A stretch of DNA of 64,000 bases from the NCBI RefSeq assembly GCF_029395675.1, contig NZ_CP115184.1, positions 1,860,001 to 1,924,000 of the forward strand. The letters are read 5' to 3'. The notes beneath the pieces were generated by a model. That model worked only from the letters and a program-made list of their open reading frames with translations. It made no database searches and was not told the origin of the DNA. The DNA comes from Janibacter cremeus. GTDB lineage: Bacteria; Actinomycetota; Actinomycetes; Actinomycetales; Dermatophilaceae. Position numbers and translations under genes: made by a program. Shown here in pieces: positions 4,275 to 56,777 of the stretch (the stretch's first letter is position 1; every line of letters begins with the position of its first letter).

Positions 4275-5606
4275 TCAGCCGGCCGCGGCGGCCTTCGCAG
4301 CGGCGGGGAGGGCCGCCAGGATCGTCTCGACGGCCGTGTCGTCGTGGGCGCCGGAGACGAACCACGCCTCGAAGGCGCTCGGCGGCAGGTGCACACCACC
4401 CTCGAGCATCGCGTGGAAGAAGCGACCGTACGCCGACGTGTCCTGCTGCTGGGCATCGGCGAAGGACCGCACCTCGCCGTCACGGAAGAAGATCGAGAAC
4501 ATCGACCCGGCCCACTGGACGCGGTGCGCCACCCCCTCCGCGGACAGCGCGGCCGAGGCGGCGTCGGCGATGCGAGTGGCCGTGGCCTCGAGGCGGGGGT
4601 AGAGCTGCGGGGTGCAGGCGCGCAGCGTCGCGATCCCGGCAGCCGTCGCGACGGGGTTGCCCGAGAGGGTCCCGGCCTGGTAGACGGGCCCCTCGGGAGC
4701 GAGCTTCGCCATGAGATCGGCCCGACCGCCGAAGGCCGCGGCCGGGAAGCCACCACCCATGACCTTGCCGAAGGTGAAGAGATCGGGCGCGCCCCCCTCG
4801 TACCCTCCGGGGTGCGCGCCGTCGGGGCCGGTCTCGTGGCCGTACCAGCCCGACCGGCTGGAGCGGAAGCCGGTCATGACCTCGTCGCTGATGAGCAGCG
4901 CGCCGTGGGCGGCCGTCACCCGACGCAACCCCTCCGTGAAGCCGGGTGCGGGCGGGACGATGCCCATGTTGCCGGGTGCCGCCTCGGTGATGACCGCGGC
5001 GATCTCCTCACCCCGGGCGGCGAAGAGCTCCTCGACGGCGGCGAGATCGTTGTAGGGCAGCACGACCGTCTCGCCCGCCGCCGAGGCGGGGACGCCGGCG
5101 GAGTCGGGCAGCGCGAAGGTCGCCACCCCCGAACCGGCCTGCGCGAGAAGGGCGTCGACGTGACCGTGGTAGCAGCCGGCGAACTTCACGATGACCGAAC
5201 GACCGGTCGCTCCCCGCGCGAGGCGCAGGGCCGACATCGTCGCCTCGGTCCCGGAGGAGACGAGTCGGACCTGCTCGAGCGGCTCGACGCGGTCGACCAC
5301 CTCGGCGGCCAGCACGACCTCGTTCTCGCTCGGCGTCCCGAAGGAGAAACCACGCTGTGCGGCCTCGGTCACGGCCGCGAGGACGTCGGGGTGGGCGTGA
5401 CCGAGGATCATCGGCCCCCACGAGCAGATGAGGTCGACGTAGCGGTTGCCGTCGACATCGATCAGCCAAGCTCCCTCGGCTCGCTCGATGAACCTCGGGA
5501 CGCCACCGACCCCGCCGAAGGCGCGCACCGGGGAGTTGACTCCCCCGGGCGTCACGGCGCGGGCGCGGTCGAACAGGGCCTCGGATCGGGTCGTCGTCTG
5601 CGTCAT
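4275..5606 (-). CDS. hemL: Glutamate-1-semialdehyde 2,1-aminomutase
   Basis: 443 residues. PLP enzyme that isomerises glutamate-1-semialdehyde to 5-aminolevulinate, the second step of the C5 haem pathway begun by HemA. Visible: N-terminal [30 protein letters not shown] (phosphate-binding region), [24 protein letters not shown], and [18 protein letters not shown] containing the PLP lysine near residue 280. The ATG at 5606 is preceded by purine-rich sequence. It lies 76 bp downstream of marR, so it may share the hem operon transcript or have its own start. Confidence 0.97.
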
Positions 5607-5682
5607 GGCCCCAGTCTCCCCCACGACCCCGACCCGGCCGAGCCGAGGGAGGGGGCGGAGGCGACCGACCCCCTTCGCCCGA

Positions 5683-6168
5683 TCAGGCCTGGTCGTCCAG
5701 GCCGATCTCGTGGTGCTCGGGCGCCAGCCGGTCACGCACCGCGGCCATCGCCTCGCCCAGCGCGGTGAACTGCTCGGGGGTGAGGACGTCGACGAGGTGC
5801 TTGCGCACCGACTCCACGTGGACGCCGGCGAGCTCGTCGAGGATCGTGCGACCGGCGTCGGTGAGCACGATCTCGACACCACGCCCGTCGTCCGAGGCCC
5901 GGCAGCGCTCGACCCAGCCGCGCTTCTCCAGCCGCGCGGCGGTGTGGGTCACCCGCGAGCGCGACTGCACGATGTCGTCGGCGAGGTGGGACATGCGGGT
6001 GCGCTGCCCGGGGGACTCGGAGAGCATCGACAGCAGCTCGTACTCGGTCAGCTGCATCTTGTACGGCGCCAGGTCGTCGACCAGCGCCCGCTCGAGCAGA
6101 CGCGTGCCGCGCAGGTAGGCGCGCCAGTGCTGCTGCTGCTGCGCATCCAGCCAGTTCGTCCCGCTCAC
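5683..6168 (-). CDS. MarR-family transcriptional regulator
   Basis: 161 residues from a GTG that overlaps the hemB stop by 4 bp (GTGA), so it is probably translationally coupled to hemB. The winged-helix core is visible: [49 protein letters not shown], followed by a [15 protein letters not shown] wing and a C-terminal dimerisation helix. Its location inside a haem operon suggests a role in haem or redox homeostasis, but no operator is evident and the ligand is unknown. Class assignment is firm; the target is not. Confidence 0.88.
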
Positions 6169-7169
6169 AGTCGTCCCGCCACCTCGAGTGCGAAGTACGT
6201 GAGGATCATCTGGGCTCCGGCCCGCTTGATGTGGAGGAGCGACTCGAGCACGGCGGCGTCACGGTCGATCCAGCCGCGGTCGGCGGCGGCGACGATCTGC
6301 GCGTACTCACCGGAGATCTGGTAGGCCGCGACCGGCACGGTGGAGATCTGCGCCGTGGCGGCGAGGACGTCCAGGTGCGGCTGGGCGGGCTTGACCATGA
6401 CGATGTCGGCGCCCTCGGCGAGGTCGAGCTCGACCTCGCGCAGGGCCTCGACGGCATTGGCCGGGTCCTGCTGGTAGGTCGCCCGGTCACCGGTGAGCGA
6501 GGACTGCACGGCCTCGCGGAAGGGGCCGTACAGCGCGGAGGTGTACTTCGCGGCGTAGGCGAGCACGAGGGTGTCGGTGTACCCGGCGGCATCGAGCGCA
6601 GCGCGCACGTGGGCGACCTGCCCGTCCATCATCCCGGAGAGGCCGAGGACGTGGGCTCCGGCGGCGGCCTGGGCGAGCGCCATGTCCGCGTAGCGGGTGA
6701 GGGTGGCGTCGTTGTCCACCACCGTGCGCCCCGCCCGGTCGGTCGTGAGCACCCCGCAGTGACCGTGGTCGGTGAACTCGTCGAGGCACAGGTCGGTCAT
6801 GACGACGAGCTCGTCACCGACCGCGTCGACGACCGCCCGGGTGGCGACGTTGAGGATCCCCTCGGGGTCATCGGCACCGGAGCCGCAGTCGTCCTTGGTC
6901 TGCGGCACGCCGAAGAGCATGATCCCGCCGATACCGGCGGCCACGCACACCCGCGCCTCCTCCACGAGGGAGTCGACGGTGTGCTGCACCGTGCCCGGCA
7001 TGGAGGAGATCGGCACCGGCGCGTCGACGCCCTCACGGACGAAGACGGGCAGGACCAGGTCGGCCGGGTGCAGCCGCGTCTCCGCGACGAGACGACGAAG
7101 GGGGGCGCTGCCCCGCAGTCGCCGCGGCCGCACGACGGGTCCGTTCGGACCGCGGGACGCGGGGGTCAC
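6165..7169 (-). CDS. hemB: Delta-aminolevulinic acid dehydratase (porphobilinogen synthase)
   Basis: 334 residues, GTG start overlapping the hemD stop by 4 bp. Condenses two 5-aminolevulinates to porphobilinogen. The two Schiff-base lysine motifs are present: LAYAAKYTSALYGPFR and IVMVKPAQPHLDVL. The metal region reads DLCLDEFTDHGHCG, keeping the first and last cysteines of the three-Cys zinc motif but with Asp at the middle position. SGMMDGQVAHVRAALD is also conserved. It is the fifth gene of the rex-hemACDB operon. Confidence 0.97.
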   Translation of the reverse strand: MTPASRGPNGPVVRPRRLRGSAPLRRLVAETRLHPADLVLPVFVREGVDAPVPISSMPGTVQHTVDSLVEEARVCVAAGIGGIMLFGVPQTKDDCGSGADDPEGILNVATRAVVDAVGDELVVMTDLCLDEFTDHGHCGVLTTDRAGRTVVDNDATLTRYADMALAQAAAGAHVLGLSGMMDGQVAHVRAALDAAGYTDTLVLAYAAKYTSALYGPFREAVQSSLTGDRATYQQDPANAVEALREVELDLAEGADIVMVKPAQPHLDVLAATAQISTVPVAAYQISGEYAQIVAAADRGWIDRDAAVLESLLHIKRAGAQMILTYFALEVAGRL

Positions 7170-51067: not shown

Positions 51068-52246
51068 ATGACGAGCACACCGGGACCCGGCACCCGGACG
51101 CTGGACGTCGGCGTCGGGGACGCCACCCTCGCGAGCGCGGACATGGTGCTCAACATCGGCCCGCAGCACCCCGCGACCCACGGCGTCCTGCGCCTGCGGG
51201 TCGTGCTCGACGGCGAGCGGGTGGTCTCGGCGGACCCGGTCGTCGGTTACATGCACCGTGGGGCGGAGAAGCTCTTCGAGGTCCGCGACTACCGGCAGAT
51301 CACGATGCTGGCCAACCGCCACGACTGGTTGTCGGCCTTCAGCAACGAGCTGGGGGTCGTCCTCGGGGTCGAGGCGATGCTCGGTATGGAGGTCCCGGAG
51401 CGGGCCACGTGGGCTCGCACCCTCCTCGCGGAGCTCAACCGCGTGCTCAACCACCTGATGTTCCTGGGGTCCTACCCGCTCGAGCTCGGTGCGATCACGC
51501 CGATCTTCTACTCCTTCCGCGAGCGCGAGGACCTCCAGGCGGTGATGGAGGAGATCTCCGGCGGCCGGATGCACTTCATGTTCAACCGCGTCGGCGGCCT
51601 CAAGGAGGACCTGCCGGCGGGGTGGCTGGACCGGGTCTCCGCCGTCGTGGCGCTGGTCCGGGCCCGGATGCCGCAGCTCGAGGTCCTGATCGTCGGCAAC
51701 GAGATCCTCGAGGCGAGGACGAAGGGGGTCGGTCCCCTCTCCCACGACCTCGCCTGCGCCTACGGCGTCTCCGGGCCGATCGCCCGGGCCTCGGGCGTCG
51801 ACGTGGACCTGCGGCGCGACGACCCCTACCTCGCGTACGGGGAACTCTTCGGCGAAGGGGGCCCCGGCAGGGTCGTCACCCGCACCGCCGGCGACAGCCT
51901 GGCGCGGCTCGAGGTGCTCCTGGAGCAGACCCACGTCAGCCTCGACCTCGCCGACGCGTGCGTGGAGCGGATGCGCTCGCTCGAGCGCGGTCCGGTGAAC
52001 CAGCGCCTCCCCAAGGTGCTCAAGGTGCCCGAGGGCGACCGGTACACCGCGACGGAGAACCCGCTGGGCCTCAACGGATACCACCTGGTCTCGCGCGGCG
52101 ACAAGACACCGTGGCGGCTGAAGCTGCGGTCCGCGTCCTTCGGGAACGTGCAGGTGCTCTCGCAGGTCCTGCCCGGCTGCCTCGTCTCCGACCTCGTTGC
52201 CGTGCTCGGCTCGATGTTCTTCGTCGTGGGGGACGTCGACAAGTAG
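51068..52246 (+). CDS. Orphan NuoD-like (complex I 49-kDa) subunit
   Basis: 392 residues from the ATG at 51068. A CATACT box lies 7 nt upstream (51055-51060). Clear NuoD family: [84 protein letters not shown] and [12 protein letters not shown]. His34 and His38 (quinone-site histidine region) and Arg64 (NDUFAF7 target in HRG) are kept. The Tyr equivalent to bovine Tyr108 is Trp87 in RHDW. No other nuo genes are nearby. Probably not part of ordinary complex I. Confidence 0.88.
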
Positions 52247-52395: not shown

Positions 52396-53457
52396 ATGAG
52401 CAAGCGCGTCACCACCCGTCTGTCTGCGAGTGCCGCACTCGTCACCGGCCTCGGCTTGATGGGCATCGCCTCCGCGGCCCCGGCCCAGGCCGCTTCGGCC
52501 ACGCTTGACTACAGCTGCACCTACACCGTGCTCAACATGGGTGTGATCGAGGGTGACAACGCCGTCAGTGTCGACCTCGACGTCGCGCTGCCGGAGACCG
52601 CGCAGGTCGGCGATGTGATCGACCCCGACGTGACGGCCACCGTCACCATCCCGGAGTCCCGGCGTGACTCGTTGTACGGCTTGCTCAACGTGCGCAGCAT
52701 CGATGGGCCGGGAGAAGCCGAGGCAGCCGCCGAGGACGGTGGACTCAACGCGCAAAATGCGCGAAACCAGGCGGACTTCACGCTCAGCGACGGCACCACC
52801 ACCCTCGATGGCACCATCCCGCTCCAGATCCCCATGACCGAGGTCCCGGCTGCCGGTGAGCTCGTCGTCACCGCCACCGGCGCGACGGAGCCCGTGACCC
52901 TCGAGCAGGCGGGCACCTACACCATCGCCGCGGGCGACTTCCAGAGCTACATCCGGGCGTACGACGCGAGTGGTGGCTACTCCACCAACGTCACGCTCGA
53001 CTGCACCCTGGTCTCGTCGGACGCGACGATCGGCGCGGTCGTTGTCGAGCCCGGCACCGGGGATGACGGCACGGGCGGCACCGATGGGACCGACGGCACG
53101 GACGGGACTGACGGCACGGACGGGACCGATGGGACCGACGGGACCGACGGCACGGATGGCACCGACGGCACCGACGGCACCGATGGGACCGACGGCACGG
53201 ATGGGACCGACGGCACGGATGGCACCGACGGCACCGATGGGGCCGACGGCACGGATGGCACCGACGGCACTGACGGCACTGACGGCACGGACGCCGGCAC
53301 TCCGCAGATCCCCGCGGTCGTCCAGACCGACGGTCTCACCCCGGCCATGACCTCCCAGGAGGACAACACCGCCGCGCTCGCACTCGGTGGTCTGCTCCTC
53401 GCGGGTGCAGGCGCCGGCACCGTGCTGGTCGCACGTCGCCGCGCGCAGCAGCACTGA
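52396..53457 (+). CDS. Secreted surface protein with GTD repeats and C-terminal anchoring tail
   Basis: 353 residues; AGGGGAG lies 5 nt before the ATG. Signal peptide ends AAPAQA near residue 32. A beta-rich domain begins SATLDYSCTYTVL (Cys41) and ends VTLDCTLV, so its two cysteines probably form a disulfide; it resembles DUF6801-type domains. Then 24 Gly-x-Asp triplets (23 GTD, one GAD), then a tail VVQTDGLTP, a hydrophobic helix and ARRRAQQH. No LPxTG. The tail is near-identical to that of the next gene, and a sortase follows, so cell-surface anchoring is inferred. Confidence 0.82.
   Translation: MSKRVTTRLSASAALVTGLGLMGIASAAPAQAASATLDYSCTYTVLNMGVIEGDNAVSVDLDVALPETAQVGDVIDPDVTATVTIPESRRDSLYGLLNVRSIDGPGEAEAAAEDGGLNAQNARNQADFTLSDGTTTLDGTIPLQIPMTEVPAAGELVVTATGATEPVTLEQAGTYTIAAGDFQSYIRAYDASGGYSTNVTLDCTLVSSDATIGAVVVEPGTGDDGTGGTDGTDGTDGTDGTDGTDGTDGTDGTDGTDGTDGTDGTDGTDGTDGTDGTDGTDGADGTDGTDGTDGTDGTDAGTPQIPAVVQTDGLTPAMTSQEDNTAALALGGLLLAGAGAGTVLVARRRAQQH
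53077..53292 (+). repeat. Coding 9-bp repeat array, (Gly-Thr-Asp)n
   Basis: 24 tandem 9-bp units of the form GGn-ACn-GAy encode 23 GTD and one GAD triplet. Third positions vary (GGC/GGG, ACC/ACG/ACT, GAC/GAT), so the array is not freshly expanded. Encodes an acidic, flexible stalk between the exported domain and the C-terminal tail. Confidence 0.95.
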
Positions 53458-53495
53458 TGTAGGAAGCCACCGACCCCGGGTCGGTGAGCACGGCC

Positions 53496-53526
53496 ACGGG
53501 CCGCCGACCAGAGGTCGGCGGCCCGT
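53496..53526 (+). terminator. Terminator after surface protein 1
   Basis: Perfect 14-bp stem (53496-53509 with 53513-53526), 3-nt loop, 39 bp after the stop, followed by CGTCGTTCTC. It shows surface protein 1 ends its own transcript. Confidence 0.75.
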
Positions 53527-53610
53527 CGTCGTTCTCCCGTGGCCAGCGCATCAGGGTCCGATGCCTCCGGGACGAGCACGTGACGATTCGGTCCCGACGA
53601 GCCCCTCGCG

Positions 53611-53639
53611 TTGAGAGTGGCCCAACTCACCGCTATCTT
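53611..53639 (+). promoter_or_regulatory. Promoter of surface protein 2
   Basis: TTGAGA (53611-53616) and TATCTT (53634-53639) are separated by 17 bp, the best -35/-10 match in this region. The start would be about 47 nt upstream of the ATG at 53693. Confidence 0.6.
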
Positions 53640-53692
53640 CCTCGAAGGGCACCCGCGCCCAGCGGTTGCCGTCGAGAACTGGGGAGACCAGC

Positions 53693-54526
53693 ATGGCTGC
53701 ACGCCTGAAGACCCGCCTGTCGGCGGGTGCCGCACTCGTCACGGGCCTCGGCATGATGGGCGTCGCCACCGCCCTGCCGGCTCACGCCGCAGCGACCGCC
53801 ACGTACACCTGCACGGTTGAGGGCCCCGACGGCCCCGTCGAGGAGGACATCAGCGTCACCTTCGAAACCAATGCCCCGGCGACCGTCGCCCCCGGCAACA
53901 CCGTGACCGTCGACTCCGTCACGGCCACTGCGACGATCCCGCTGGCGGGCGCGTCGTCACCAGCCGAGGGGGCCGAGGTCACCGTCCCCGTCACCGCCCC
54001 CGTGACCGTCGACGGTGAGCCCATCGGCACCGTCGATGCGGAACTCACGTCCGAGGCCATCACCGTCGACGCGACCGAGGTGCAGGTTCAGCTGGCGGAC
54101 CACCAGTCGCGATCCATCGAGGTTCCCCTCGAGGCCGCCGGCCGGATCTTCCAGGTGCTGGTACCGGAATCCTTCGACGCGACCTTCAGCGGCTTCGCGG
54201 AGGTGCCGATCATCGCGTCGTGCGAGACGGAGGAGTCGGCCCAGGTCATCGACACGGTCGTCGTCACCTCACCGGAGATGGAGGAGGAGCCCGAGGACGC
54301 CGAGGACATCGCCGAGGTCCACGAGCCGGCCGACGAGCAGCCGCCCGGCGGGGATGCGTCGGCGGACGAGCCCGCTGTCCCGCAGGTCGTGCAGACCGAC
54401 GGCCTGACCCCCCGGATGCTGCCCCAAGAGGACGACACCCTCGGGTACGTCCTGGGTGGCCTGCTCCTCGCCGGCGCCGGCGCCGGGACCGTCCTCGTGG
54501 CCCGTCGCCGGTCCACCCAGCACTGA
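53693..54526 (+). CDS. Secreted surface protein 2 with the same C-terminal anchoring tail
   Basis: 277 residues from MAARLKTRLSAGAALVTG, GGGGAG upstream. The signal region matches surface protein 1 closely (TRLSA-AALVTGLG-MG), cleaved near ALPAHA at residue 32. The domain starts ATATYTCTVEG (Cys40) and ends VPIIASCETEE; it is followed by an acidic stretch (EMEEEPEDAEDIAEVHEPADEQ) and the tail PQVVQTDGLTPRM, then GGLLLAGAGAGTVLVARRR. No GTD repeats. Paralogue of the preceding protein; both are likely sorted by the downstream sortase. Confidence 0.82.
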   Translation: MAARLKTRLSAGAALVTGLGMMGVATALPAHAAATATYTCTVEGPDGPVEEDISVTFETNAPATVAPGNTVTVDSVTATATIPLAGASSPAEGAEVTVPVTAPVTVDGEPIGTVDAELTSEAITVDATEVQVQLADHQSRSIEVPLEAAGRIFQVLVPESFDATFSGFAEVPIIASCETEESAQVIDTVVVTSPEMEEEPEDAEDIAEVHEPADEQPPGGDASADEPAVPQVVQTDGLTPRMLPQEDDTLGYVLGGLLLAGAGAGTVLVARRRSTQH

Positions 54527-54548
54527 GGCCGAGCGCCACCACCACGGC

Positions 54549-54592
54549 ACGGGCCGTCGGCATCCGGGAGCATCCCGGCGCCGACGGCCCGT
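54549..54592 (+). terminator. Terminator after surface protein 2
   Basis: 12-bp stem (54549-54560 with 54581-54592) enclosing a second small stem, CCGGG/CCCGG, 22 bp after the stop codon. The sortase gene starts 74 bp later, so read-through or another promoter would be needed to express it. Confidence 0.6.
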
Positions 54593-54666
54593 ATCGTTAC
54601 CCGCAGGGAACTCCACGACGAGGACGCCCGTTCTGCCAGTGACGCCGAGATGACGAAGGGGGGCAC

Positions 54667-55425
54667 GTGACGACACCGCACACACGCCGGGAGAAGCGCC
54701 GAGGGGACAAGCGCTACCGGCGCACGACCGTGCTCATGGCCGCCTCCGTCGCGCTCCTCGTGGGCGCCGGCGCCATGGGTCTCTGGTGGACGCAGCGGGA
54801 CCAGCCGGTGATGAACGTCGACGTGGACGCCTACGTGCCGCCGACCGAGATCATGCCGCCCTCGCCGAGCTCGTCGTCGCCGAGCACCTCGAGCAAGACC
54901 TCCTCGTCCTCCTCCAGCACGTCGTCGTCCTCAGCCAACGGCAACGTCGTCCAGGGAGCCCCCACCGGCAACCCGACTCGCGTCCAGGTCACCTCCGGCG
55001 GCCGCTCCATCGTCGACGCCACGCTCCAGGCGACGCTGCTCGACTCCGAGAACGTCCTGGCCCCTCCCTTCGGCACCGCCGGCTGGTACGCCGAGCCCGG
55101 CTGGCCCAAGCCAGGCTTCGACGGTGCGAGCATCCTCGTCGGACACATCAACCACGGCAGCAACCCGGACGTTTTCTGGAACCTGCCGCGGGTCAACATC
55201 GGCGACGTCGTCACGGTCTCCTACAGCTCCGGCGAGCAGGTGAAGTTCGAGATCACCAGGTCCGAGCCGGCGACCAAGCAGGGCGTCCCCCAGGACGACT
55301 CGATCTGGGACCACGACAACCCGGACCCGGTGCTGCGCCTGATCACGTGCGATCCGCAGACGTCCTTCAGCAACGGGCACTACGACGGCAACTGGGTCGT
55401 GTGGGCCAAGCGGCTGACGACCTGA
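54667..55425 (+). CDS. Class E/F-like sortase with Ser-rich stalk
   Basis: 252 residues, GTG start with GAAGGGGGG upstream. Basic N-terminus, one membrane helix (about residues 21-40), then a long Pro/Ser/Thr linker (PPSPSSSSPSTSSKTSSSSS) and the sortase barrel from about residue 103: FDGASILVGHINHGSNPDVFWNLPRVNIGDVVTV, with His160 as the catalytic candidate, and VLRLITCDP with Cys228. The stretch after the Cys (DPQTSFSNGHYDGNWVVWA) contains no Arg, although sortases normally need one there. Probably anchors the two preceding proteins. Confidence 0.8.
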   Translation: MTTPHTRREKRRGDKRYRRTTVLMAASVALLVGAGAMGLWWTQRDQPVMNVDVDAYVPPTEIMPPSPSSSSPSTSSKTSSSSSSTSSSSANGNVVQGAPTGNPTRVQVTSGGRSIVDATLQATLLDSENVLAPPFGTAGWYAEPGWPKPGFDGASILVGHINHGSNPDVFWNLPRVNIGDVVTVSYSSGEQVKFEITRSEPATKQGVPQDDSIWDHDNPDPVLRLITCDPQTSFSNGHYDGNWVVWAKRLTT

Positions 55426-55439
55426 CCCGGCAGGTCGTC
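55416..55439. terminator. Hairpin shared by sortase and DUF3180 gene ends
   Basis: GACGACCTG and CAGGTCGTC form a perfect 9-bp stem with a 6-nt loop. It overlaps both stop codons, TGA at 55423-55425 and the complement at 55438-55440, so the convergent genes use one bidirectional terminator. Confidence 0.65.
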
Positions 55440-55905
55440 AGGCGGGATCGCGGTCCTCGTCCTCGTCGTCGTCATCGATGCGGCACCAGGACTGGACGAG
55501 GAGCCCGGCGACGGCCATGAGCAGCCCCCCGAGCGCTGCGAGCCCGTGCTGGACCGCGAGGACCCCTCGCCCACCGAAGTCGTGGTCCGGCAGCAGCGCG
55601 AGCGCCTGCCCGAGGTAGAGACCCCCGGTGATCGCGCCGGTGAGCGCGCTGGCCTGGGCCAGACCGAGCAGACGGGCGGCGACCACGGGCTCGACGTGCG
55701 TGCGGCCGCGCCGCATCCGCCACATCCGTGAGCCGGCCACCACGACCACGACGGCCATGCCCACGAGCAGGACACCGGCCACCCAACCGATCCGTAGACC
55801 GGCGTGGCCGCCCGTGATCCACCAGCGCCCGAAGCCCCAGCTGAAGACGGTCACGACGACGGCGACGAGCACCGTCGTCGAGATCTTCAGGCCCGTCCTC
55901 AGCAC
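55438..55905 (-). CDS. DUF3180 family membrane protein
   Basis: 155 residues from the GTG at 55905 (VLRTGLKISTTVLVAVVV), which overlaps the folK end by 7 bp. Four hydrophobic helices: TVLVAVVVTVFSWGF, LRIGWVAGVLLVGMAVVVVVAG, ARLLGLAQASALTGAITGGLYLGQALALL and HGLAALGGLLMAVAGLLV, with an acidic tail. DUF3180 proteins follow folK in most actinobacteria (Rv3605c position, from memory), but their function is not known. Confidence 0.86.
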   Translation of the reverse strand: MLRTGLKISTTVLVAVVVTVFSWGFGRWWITGGHAGLRIGWVAGVLLVGMAVVVVVAGSRMWRMRRGRTHVEPVVAARLLGLAQASALTGAITGGLYLGQALALLPDHDFGGRGVLAVQHGLAALGGLLMAVAGLLVQSWCRIDDDDEDEDRDPA

Positions 55906-56777
55906 GGGCCGGCCTCGCTGTCGCGCATGTCGGAGGTGTCGACCGCCGCGAGCAGCTCGCTCACGGCGATGACCGAGCCGCCGACGCGCAGGACGGCCTC
56001 CGGGTCGATGCGGGCCCACGGCGCGAGCACGAAACCGCGCTCGTGCGCCCGCGGGTGCGGCAGCGTGAGCTGCGGCTCGTCGCTGACGACATCGGTCCCG
56101 GTGGCGGGGTCGCCGTACTGGATGAGGTCGAGGTCGAGGCTGCGCGCCCCCCAGCGCACCTCCCGCACCCGACCGTGCCGGGCCTCGACGGCGTGCAGCC
56201 GCGCGAGCAGCGCAGCGGGCGCGAGGGCCGTCGTCGCCAGCAGGACGGTGTTGGTGTAGCGCGGCTGGTCGGGACCGCCGACCGGGTCCGTGGTGACGAA
56301 GGGAGCCCGACGCACCGCGTCGAGGTCACCGGCGAGGTCGTCGATCGCGGCGTCCAGGCGCCGCTCGGGGTCCCCGAGGTTGGCACCGAGCGCGATCACC
56401 ACGGGGACGGCGCGACGACGCTCGACGGCCACGGTCACGTCCCCGAAGGGCACCCCGACGGGTGCGGAGGGCTTGTGGACGGTCACCTCGACGGTGTGCA
56501 CCCCGGGGCGGGCCAGCGCGTCCCCGGCGATCTGCTCGGCGAGGGACTCGATGAGGTCGAGCGAGGGTCCCTCGACGCGGGCGACGACGTCCGCGCCGAC
56601 CTCGGCGTAGTTGACCGTACGGGCCAGGTCGTCGCTCGTCCCGGCGGGTGCCAGGTCGAGGTTCAGGACGACGTCGACGACGAACTCCTGCCCCTCGCGC
56701 TTCTCCTGCGCCAGCACCCCGTGGTGGCCGAAGGCACGCACCCCCAGCAGGCTGATCCGGTCGCGCGGCACGGTCAT
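55899..56777 (-). CDS. Bifunctional dihydroneopterin aldolase / HPPK (FolB-FolK fusion)
   Basis: 292 residues. Residues 1 to about 120 are FolB (ISLLGVRAFGHHGVLAQEKREGQEFVVDVVL, LIESLAEQIAGDAL); about 124-292 are FolK (VPVVIALGANLGDPERRLDAAID, GGPDQPRYTNTVLLATTAL, RWGARSLDLDLIQYGD, LPHPRAHERGFVLAPWA). They convert dihydroneopterin to 6-hydroxymethyl-dihydropterin and pyrophosphorylate it. These are separate genes in many actinobacteria. ATG overlaps the folP stop by 4 bp. Confidence 0.94.
   Translation of the reverse strand: MTVPRDRISLLGVRAFGHHGVLAQEKREGQEFVVDVVLNLDLAPAGTSDDLARTVNYAEVGADVVARVEGPSLDLIESLAEQIAGDALARPGVHTVEVTVHKPSAPVGVPFGDVTVAVERRRAVPVVIALGANLGDPERRLDAAIDDLAGDLDAVRRAPFVTTDPVGGPDQPRYTNTVLLATTALAPAALLARLHAVEARHGRVREVRWGARSLDLDLIQYGDPATGTDVVSDEPQLTLPHPRAHERGFVLAPWARIDPEAVLRVGGSVIAVSELLAAVDTSDMRDSEAGPC

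Follow-up and report, generated by a model that had tools for sequence, protein, structure and literature searches.

Among sortase systems already described, those of classes E and F come closest to a three-gene locus of Janibacter cremeus (assembly GCF_029395675.1, contig NZ_CP115184.1), in which two genes for secreted proteins with nearly the same C-terminal tail are followed by a sortase gene. Class E, represented by SrtE1 of Streptomyces, goes with the tag LAxTG (PMC5148588, available part of the article); in homologues of the SCO2321 type this tag stands at the same place as the one described here and the tail has the same plan, the differences being the tag itself, an Arg in the last strand (R329 in SrtE1) and a deep split of the three class E rows in our sortase tree. 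Canonical class F sortases (NCBIfam model NF033748) share with the Janibacter enzyme the sortase domain, an Asn at the aligned Arg position and an adjoining gene for a tailed protein, the tag of which has Val at P3 (17/18) and Thr at P1. They differ in the residue after the catalytic Cys (TC-G/S/A against TC-D), in a tag that is mostly GGVxTG with Gly at P1', in a CHRD domain in the single neighbour that was scanned and in forming a separate supported clade, and the Janibacter sortase (P0003) fails the cut-off of their model. The model GVDTG_CTERM (NF058571) also describes a sorting tail at the C-terminus, the core of which, to judge by the name, is V-x-T; it matched the second Janibacter tail weakly (18.3 bits, under the cut-off of 29) through the hydrophobic stretch, the first protein being unlisted, and the Janibacter tag has Asp, not Gly, after Thr. 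Lastly, a Cna-like protein of Gardnerella carries LVXTG, with Val for Pro at P3 and differing in Leu at P4 and Gly at P1', which is called a nontypical signal there (PMC12095359, available part).

According to a 2026 paper on Actinoplanes, what class F sortases do physiologically remains unknown; the list of sortase substrates in that paper was built on LPxTG-like pentapeptides, namely LPXTG, NPXTG, SPXTG, PPXTG, LPXTA and LAXTG (PMC13251363, available part). In the literature outside subscription papers and preprints, as far as the accessible parts of the sources go, we found no description of VQTD as a sortase tag. Searches for sortase together with VQTD, VQTG, GVDTG or GVETG found no paper, and those with VXTG, VXTD, GVXTG or VQTDG gave the LVXTG of Gardnerella as the sole relevant mention in the accessible text.

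We put at about 80% the probability that V-V-Q-T-D, found in both tails, is the sorting signal of the adjoining class-F-like sortase in place of LPxTG, and that the neighbouring proteins would thus be anchored to the wall. Positions below are those of the window, the whole stretch of 64,000 nt analyzed (offset 1860000 in the own genome, G000:C1, which is one contig of 3.5 Mb; the closest named relatives of its proteins are in Janibacter). The parts of the system are:

52396..53457, + strand: candidate substrate 1, 353 aa, with Sec signal peptide, DUF6801, (Gly-Thr-Asp)n stalk and tail AVVQTDGLTP..hydrophobic..RRR
53065..53293, + strand: tandem repeat encoding the Gly-Thr-Asp stalk of substrate 1 (Tandem Repeats Finder, TRF), unit 18 or 54 bases
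53320..53333, + strand: V-Q-T-D-G coding core of tail 1 (pattern match G000:C1:1913320-1913333)
53693..54526, + strand: candidate substrate 2, 277 aa from ATG, with signal peptide, divergent DUF6801-like domain, acidic linker and tail QVVQTDGLTP..hydrophobic..RRR
54389..54402, + strand: V-Q-T-D-G coding core of tail 2 (pattern match G000:C1:1914389-1914402)
54667..55425, + strand: class-F-like sortase, 252 aa from a GTG start, with N-terminal membrane anchor, Ser/Thr-rich linker and catalytic domain (His160, Cys228, Asn242)

Checking of the reading frames bore out the preliminary description of this locus as two genes for secreted, C-tailed proteins and then a sortase gene, all on the + strand. 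At the N-terminus of each exported protein is a Sec-type signal peptide, and the C-termini read AVVQTDGLTPAMTSQEDNTAALALGGLLLAGAGAGTVLVARRRAQQH and QVVQTDGLTPRMLPQEDDTLGYVLGGLLLAGAGAGTVLVARRRSTQH, respectively. These tails are as close as had been claimed (78% identical over 46 residues) and, with an E value of 9.6e-18 in the own-genome search, their likeness is not due to chance; the same search gave the two known tails as its sole strong matches and missed a third tagged protein. Each tail follows the plan of a sorting signal, VVQTDG, a hydrophobic stretch and an RRR end, with V-V-Q-T-D-G aligned to LPxTG so that Val falls at P3 and Asp at P1'. The statement that neither protein has an LPxTG-like motif was literally right, LPxTG being in neither tail and the LPXTG anchor domain TIGR01167 reaching 13.0 and 10.6 bits (cut-off 15.9), and it overlooked this aligned tag. 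The signal regions, described as almost identical, are related and not nearly identical (BLASTP 45% over the first 87 residues, E 6e-9). As to the paralogy of the two proteins, DUF6801 (PF20611, cut-off 26; no paper found in the literature search) is present in protein 1 at 74.5 bits with the repeat cut off, the whole protein with its repeat giving a Collagen-repeat match only; protein 2 stays below the cut-off (16.1 and 13.3 bits), its kinship running through P0130, a 65% identical homologue annotated PF20611. The stalk of substrate 1 is encoded by an imperfect 18/54-base array with 12.7 copies of the 18-base unit (TRF); in relatives this place is taken by different low-complexity stalks (SEPTT, TEPTTTD, SPT), so that length and composition seem free to vary. 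For substrate 2 an alternative upstream TTG start is possible at 53666.

The sortase was found in all 16 genomes of the genus searched, some copies being cut by contig ends. In the family, 73 of 149 genomes gave some match at E up to 1e-15, other class-F-like sortases included; in a sample of the order 13 of 396 genomes matched at E up to 1e-24, ten of them from the same family, and in a sample of the phylum (1/396) the own genome only. We surveyed the neighbours in 74 stretches around sortases, chosen from the own-genome, genus, family and order matches, and built a tree from 76 class-F-like and three class E sequences by a short search supported by the Shimodaira-Hasegawa-like approximate likelihood ratio test (SH-aLRT) and no bootstrap, the truncated sequences L053, L094 and L134 being excluded. 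The window sortase falls in a supported clade of 36 (SH-aLRT 98) with members in Janibacter, Knoellia, Phycicoccus, Segeticoccus, Marihabitans and a few bins with other or broader labels (26 loci), and canonical class F forms a separate clade (18 rows, SH-aLRT 99).

The tag is conserved beside the sortases of this clade. Surroundings could be read for 33 of the 36 members (L048, L050 and L051 lie at contig ends), and a gene with a V-x-T-[D/G] tail was found upstream on the same strand in 30, downstream in one (L090) and fused to the sortase in one (L092), leaving one with none (L078). The 31 tags of the clade comprise 26 VQTD, two VQTG and one each of VHTD, VNTG and VRTD. Tags vary with the sortase clade: canonical class F sortases adjoin a VxTG tail in 17 of 18 rows (GGVxTG in 16) and GGMDTG in the 18th, and the remaining 22 class-F-like rows have PVVETD, PKVETD, PPVETG, PPVQTG or PPVITD in nine cases and no tagged neighbour in 13. 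Within the same loci, 64 of the 72 tailed frames closer than 2 kb to a sortase have [VI]xT[DG], against 2/33 elsewhere. In the fusion (L092, - strand, 5492-6751) a single open reading frame encodes a signal peptide with a secreted domain, VVQTD in a segment with no clear hydrophobic stretch, and a sortase domain (PF04203, 59.1 bits), DUF6801 not being detected. It supports a functional tie of tag and sortase; it comes from one Phycicoccus metagenome bin, on a contig with a coverage of 6.9, and may be an assembly error.

The coding pattern VQTD[GA] has seven matches in the own genome, of which three are C-terminal tails and four (L212-L215) are internal or in other frames; among the latter, L212:418-1338 (+) has an internal SGVQTDG in a linker with no hydrophobic stretch after it, probably by chance. 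By itself the pattern was rejected as a specific marker because of these matches outside C-terminal tails; with matches in 57 of the 59 genomes, it was also kept out of the counts of co-occurrence. The third tail belongs to a secreted protein of 449 residues, 0.43 Mb from the sortase, which ends PEVVQTDG..hydrophobic..RRR and is of the SCO2321 type (NF053823, 120.4 bits, under the cut-off of 300), a type unrelated to the DUF6801 pair. With a third tailed protein so far from the sortase the system is not closed to three genes, and its earlier description as self-contained has to be given up, as related tags without an adjoining sortase (see below) also indicate.

Homologues of this third protein show that V/I-x-T-D and LAxTG are exchanged at one and the same place. 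Of its 166 homologues, the 120 listed were sorted by loose patterns, with some cross-sorting, into 47 with V[QHNRE]T[DG], 25 with other [VI]xT[DG], 31 with LPxTG-like tags (mostly LAxTG) and 17 with none. For a count by genome, 68 of 70 match places were read; the 51 with one of the two tags were kept and the 17 with neither left out, and class E was taken as present where NF033747 scored over its cut-off (66/149 genomes). The 29 rows with class E comprise 26 LAxTG and three V/I-x-T-D, and the 22 rows without it (21 genomes) zero and 22, respectively (Fisher p 1.5e-11 over 51 rows related by descent). All 21 class-E-free genomes with V/I-x-T-D have a class-F-like match. Ten of the class-E-free rows, from Janibacter and one other genus (g1, g38), have VQTD (nine) or VRTD (one), and the other 12 have IITD, IVTD, VVTD, VETD, IETD or VNTD. 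Seven genomes combine class E, a clade sortase and an SCO2321-type row: six of them keep LAxTG (G079, G118, G139, G148, G153, G154) and one has VVTD (G038). Beside the sortase, five of those six have a neighbour tailed with VQTD; the other, G118, has a truncated sortase, near which no tagged gene turned up. In G092, an eighth genome, LAxTG and class E go together with only a fragment of a clade-type sortase. In the own genome no class E match was obtained at E up to 1e-10, and PF04203 finds two sortases only. Since the distant SCO2321-type protein bears the same tag, the window sortase probably takes on here the role of the class E (LAxTG) sortases of relatives.

The sortase itself scores 62.7 bits on PF04203 (cut-off 26.6). 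Its best NCBIfam model is that of class F, where it reaches 86.8 bits, below the cut-off of 166, two canonical members scoring 186.2 (the other sortase of the own genome) and 170.9 bits; NCBI names several of its homologues 'class F sortase' despite the sub-cut-off score. The class E model NF033747 gave no match up to E 1, and a placement in class E was rejected on the NCBIfam results and the position in the tree, so that of the initial label 'class E/F-like' the second part stands. His160 and Cys228 are invariant in all 121 aligned sequences, query included. In the alignment column of the catalytic Arg, where the last strand begins, 75 of the 76 class-F-like rows have Asn and one has Asp, canonical class F included, and the three readable of 12 class E rows fetched have Arg; Asn242 of the window sortase thus stands, by alignment, where class E has Arg. 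For neither P0003 nor a canonical class F sequence did comparison with PDB sequences find a relative, and a profile search gave weak matches only, the best being a class C sortase (E 0.0031) and the match to sortase A chain 2mlm ending one residue before the aligned Arg position. The class F structure 5UUS, named in the available part of PMC8361268, did not appear in either comparison, so the Asn/Arg point is one of sequence alignment only. An Arg four residues before Cys is kept in 34/36 rows of the window clade and 18/18 of canonical class F, and not in the other 22. The residue after Cys is Asp throughout the clade (36/36); the 18 canonical rows have Gly, Ser or Ala there. As the loop after Cys affects substrate selectivity in class A sortases, where P1' was examined (PMC8361268, available part), a tie between this residue and P1' of the tag is plausible; the link is not strict, since the other 22 class-F-like rows also have Asp after Cys and adjoin both D and G tags.

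Taken together, the idea put forward in the preliminary description, a sortase reading a non-canonical tag common to both proteins, is well supported by co-conservation across genera, the fusion, the unrelated tagged protein and the tag swap; the whole 46-residue tail as the tag is not, the conserved part being a V-x-T-[D/G] core, after which come a hydrophobic stretch and a basic end of the usual kind. By analogy with known sortases we infer recognition of the tag, cleavage between Thr and Asp and a covalent link to the wall. The enzyme would be a membrane-anchored cysteine transpeptidase with V-V-Q-T-D as its signal. After Sec export the hydrophobic tail and the basic end would hold the substrate in place, Cys228 would attack the Thr carbonyl of VQT so that the T|D bond is cut, and the acyl-enzyme would be passed to a cell-wall precursor, the DUF6801 head being shown on a flexible stalk. 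With the two adjoining proteins as local substrates and at least one distant protein (SCO2321 type, beside transporter genes of the energy-coupling factor, ECF, type), the window sortase has at least three candidate substrates.

Several observations weigh against this proposal. L078 has no tailed neighbour, and a NuoD-like frame lies directly upstream of its sortase. Given the Asn at the catalytic Arg position, sortase activity is not to be taken for granted, and deletion of all four class F sortases in Actinoplanes caused no phenotypic change (PMC13251363, available part). Concerning the tag swap, three class E rows have V/I-x-T-D (G038, G101, G106), and G025, G038 and G073 carry a clade sortase together with the SCO2321-type tag VVTD, not VQTD. 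On the SCO2321 tree, made from the tail-free domain, there are at least three tag changes and at least five class E changes, and independent pairs came out two for, none against and two undecided, a test that with a median of only four pairs cannot reach significance. The tail occurring widely away from any sortase had been named beforehand as grounds for abandoning the idea, and for related tags this was seen in part: in 20 DUF6801 loci away from clade sortases 11 of 23 frames have a [VI]xT[DG] tail (of the others one has VQAD, ten no such tail and one is cut off), with no sortase in the flanks fetched. The 11 tagged frames and the VQAD one come from nine genomes, each of which has class-F-like matches at other places. 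Tags without an adjoining sortase speak against the system being strictly local; they do not speak against the tag itself.

The locus lies between two genes that serve as context and stand outside the system:

51068..52246, + strand: NuoD-like gene, respiratory-chain 49 kDa subunit family (PF00346)
55438..56019, - strand: gene for a DUF3180 membrane protein (PF11377), adjoining folate genes

Parts of these NuoD-like and DUF3180-folate flanks were recognized by eye in some relatives (e.g., L078, L079, L082), which suggests an old chromosomal position of the locus. A simple signal scan gave a single promoter-like site at 53611 (+) and a single terminator-like site on the - strand (52325-52299), with no terminator-like site on the + strand between the three genes; an operon of the three genes was not established.

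Because similar flanks recur in some relatives, linkage alone is weak evidence, and one could suppose that the tails are plain membrane anchors, that the sortase acts on something else and that the neighbourhood is inherited synteny. We judge this quite unlikely, since the tag occupies the LAxTG place of homologues and is common to an unrelated protein in the own genome, the neighbours of other sortase clades have other tags, and 31/33 background tailed frames are without [VI]xT[DG]. An ordinary class F enzyme of broad specificity, merely tolerating VQTD and truly preferring VxTG or LPxTG-type signals, seems to us unlikely as well. It would fit the three clade members that adjoin VQTG or VNTG (L086, L087, L084) and the NCBI naming of several homologues, and a class F sortase of Cutibacterium reportedly accepts LPxTG; on the other side, Asp is at P1' in 28/31 clade tags against Gly in 18/18 canonical class F tags, Asp after Cys is universal in the clade and never seen in canonical rows, and P0003 scores little more than half the class F cut-off. 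Two tailed proteins beside one sortase, one with a long repetitive stalk, might also bring to mind a fibre polymerized in the fashion of pilus sortases, which we find very improbable given that many clade members show a single tailed neighbour and that class C is absent from the NCBIfam matches of P0003, although its best (weak) PDB profile match is the class C one mentioned above.

Going beyond V-V-Q-T-D as the signal of the window sortase, the class-F-like sortases of the actinobacterial family might form pathways sharing a code [V/I]-x-T-[D/G] cut after Thr, with variants specific to clades (VQTD; GGVxTG; PPVETG, PVVETD or PPIITD) and Asn in place of the catalytic Arg, the VQTD pathway of Janibacter having replaced a lost or absent class E/LAxTG pathway and individual substrates having been re-tagged. 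We hold this wider reading tentatively, as a possibility somewhat short of an even chance. If class F substrates are missed by lists built on LPxTG-like motifs, a V-x-T-[D/G] code could be the reason; it also yields named enzyme-substrate pairs. If true, the combination of Val at P3 and Asp after the scissile Thr would be, within the literature searched, a specificity not described before, possibly orthogonal to LPxTG for protein ligation.

Other loci of the survey also hold tailed genes and sortases together. Pairs of a canonical class F sortase and a tailed protein, mostly GGVxTG, are found in L054:7851-9748, L099-L105, L116-L118, L122-L124, L126, L130 and L132, making a second candidate enzyme-substrate pair. 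Class-F-like sortase genes form close pairs in L107, L108, L110 and L113, and in these except L110 one VxT[D/G]-tailed gene lies beside or between the paired sortases. A tailed frame ending GPPVVTDG..RRRR (L112:2-1462, +), in the same locus as a class-F-like sortase and not adjoining it, is likely another substrate. In the own genome, the third tagged protein (L211:7287-13136, G000:C1 about 1485286-1491136) is followed by a second tailed secreted protein, without VxTD and ending DDSSALVPALVGGG..ARRRED, and by ECF transporter genes, whose CbiQ and ABC domains score over their cut-offs and the S component just under. This looks like a locus for surface capture and uptake, the ligand of which, at a guess, is perhaps a corrinoid.

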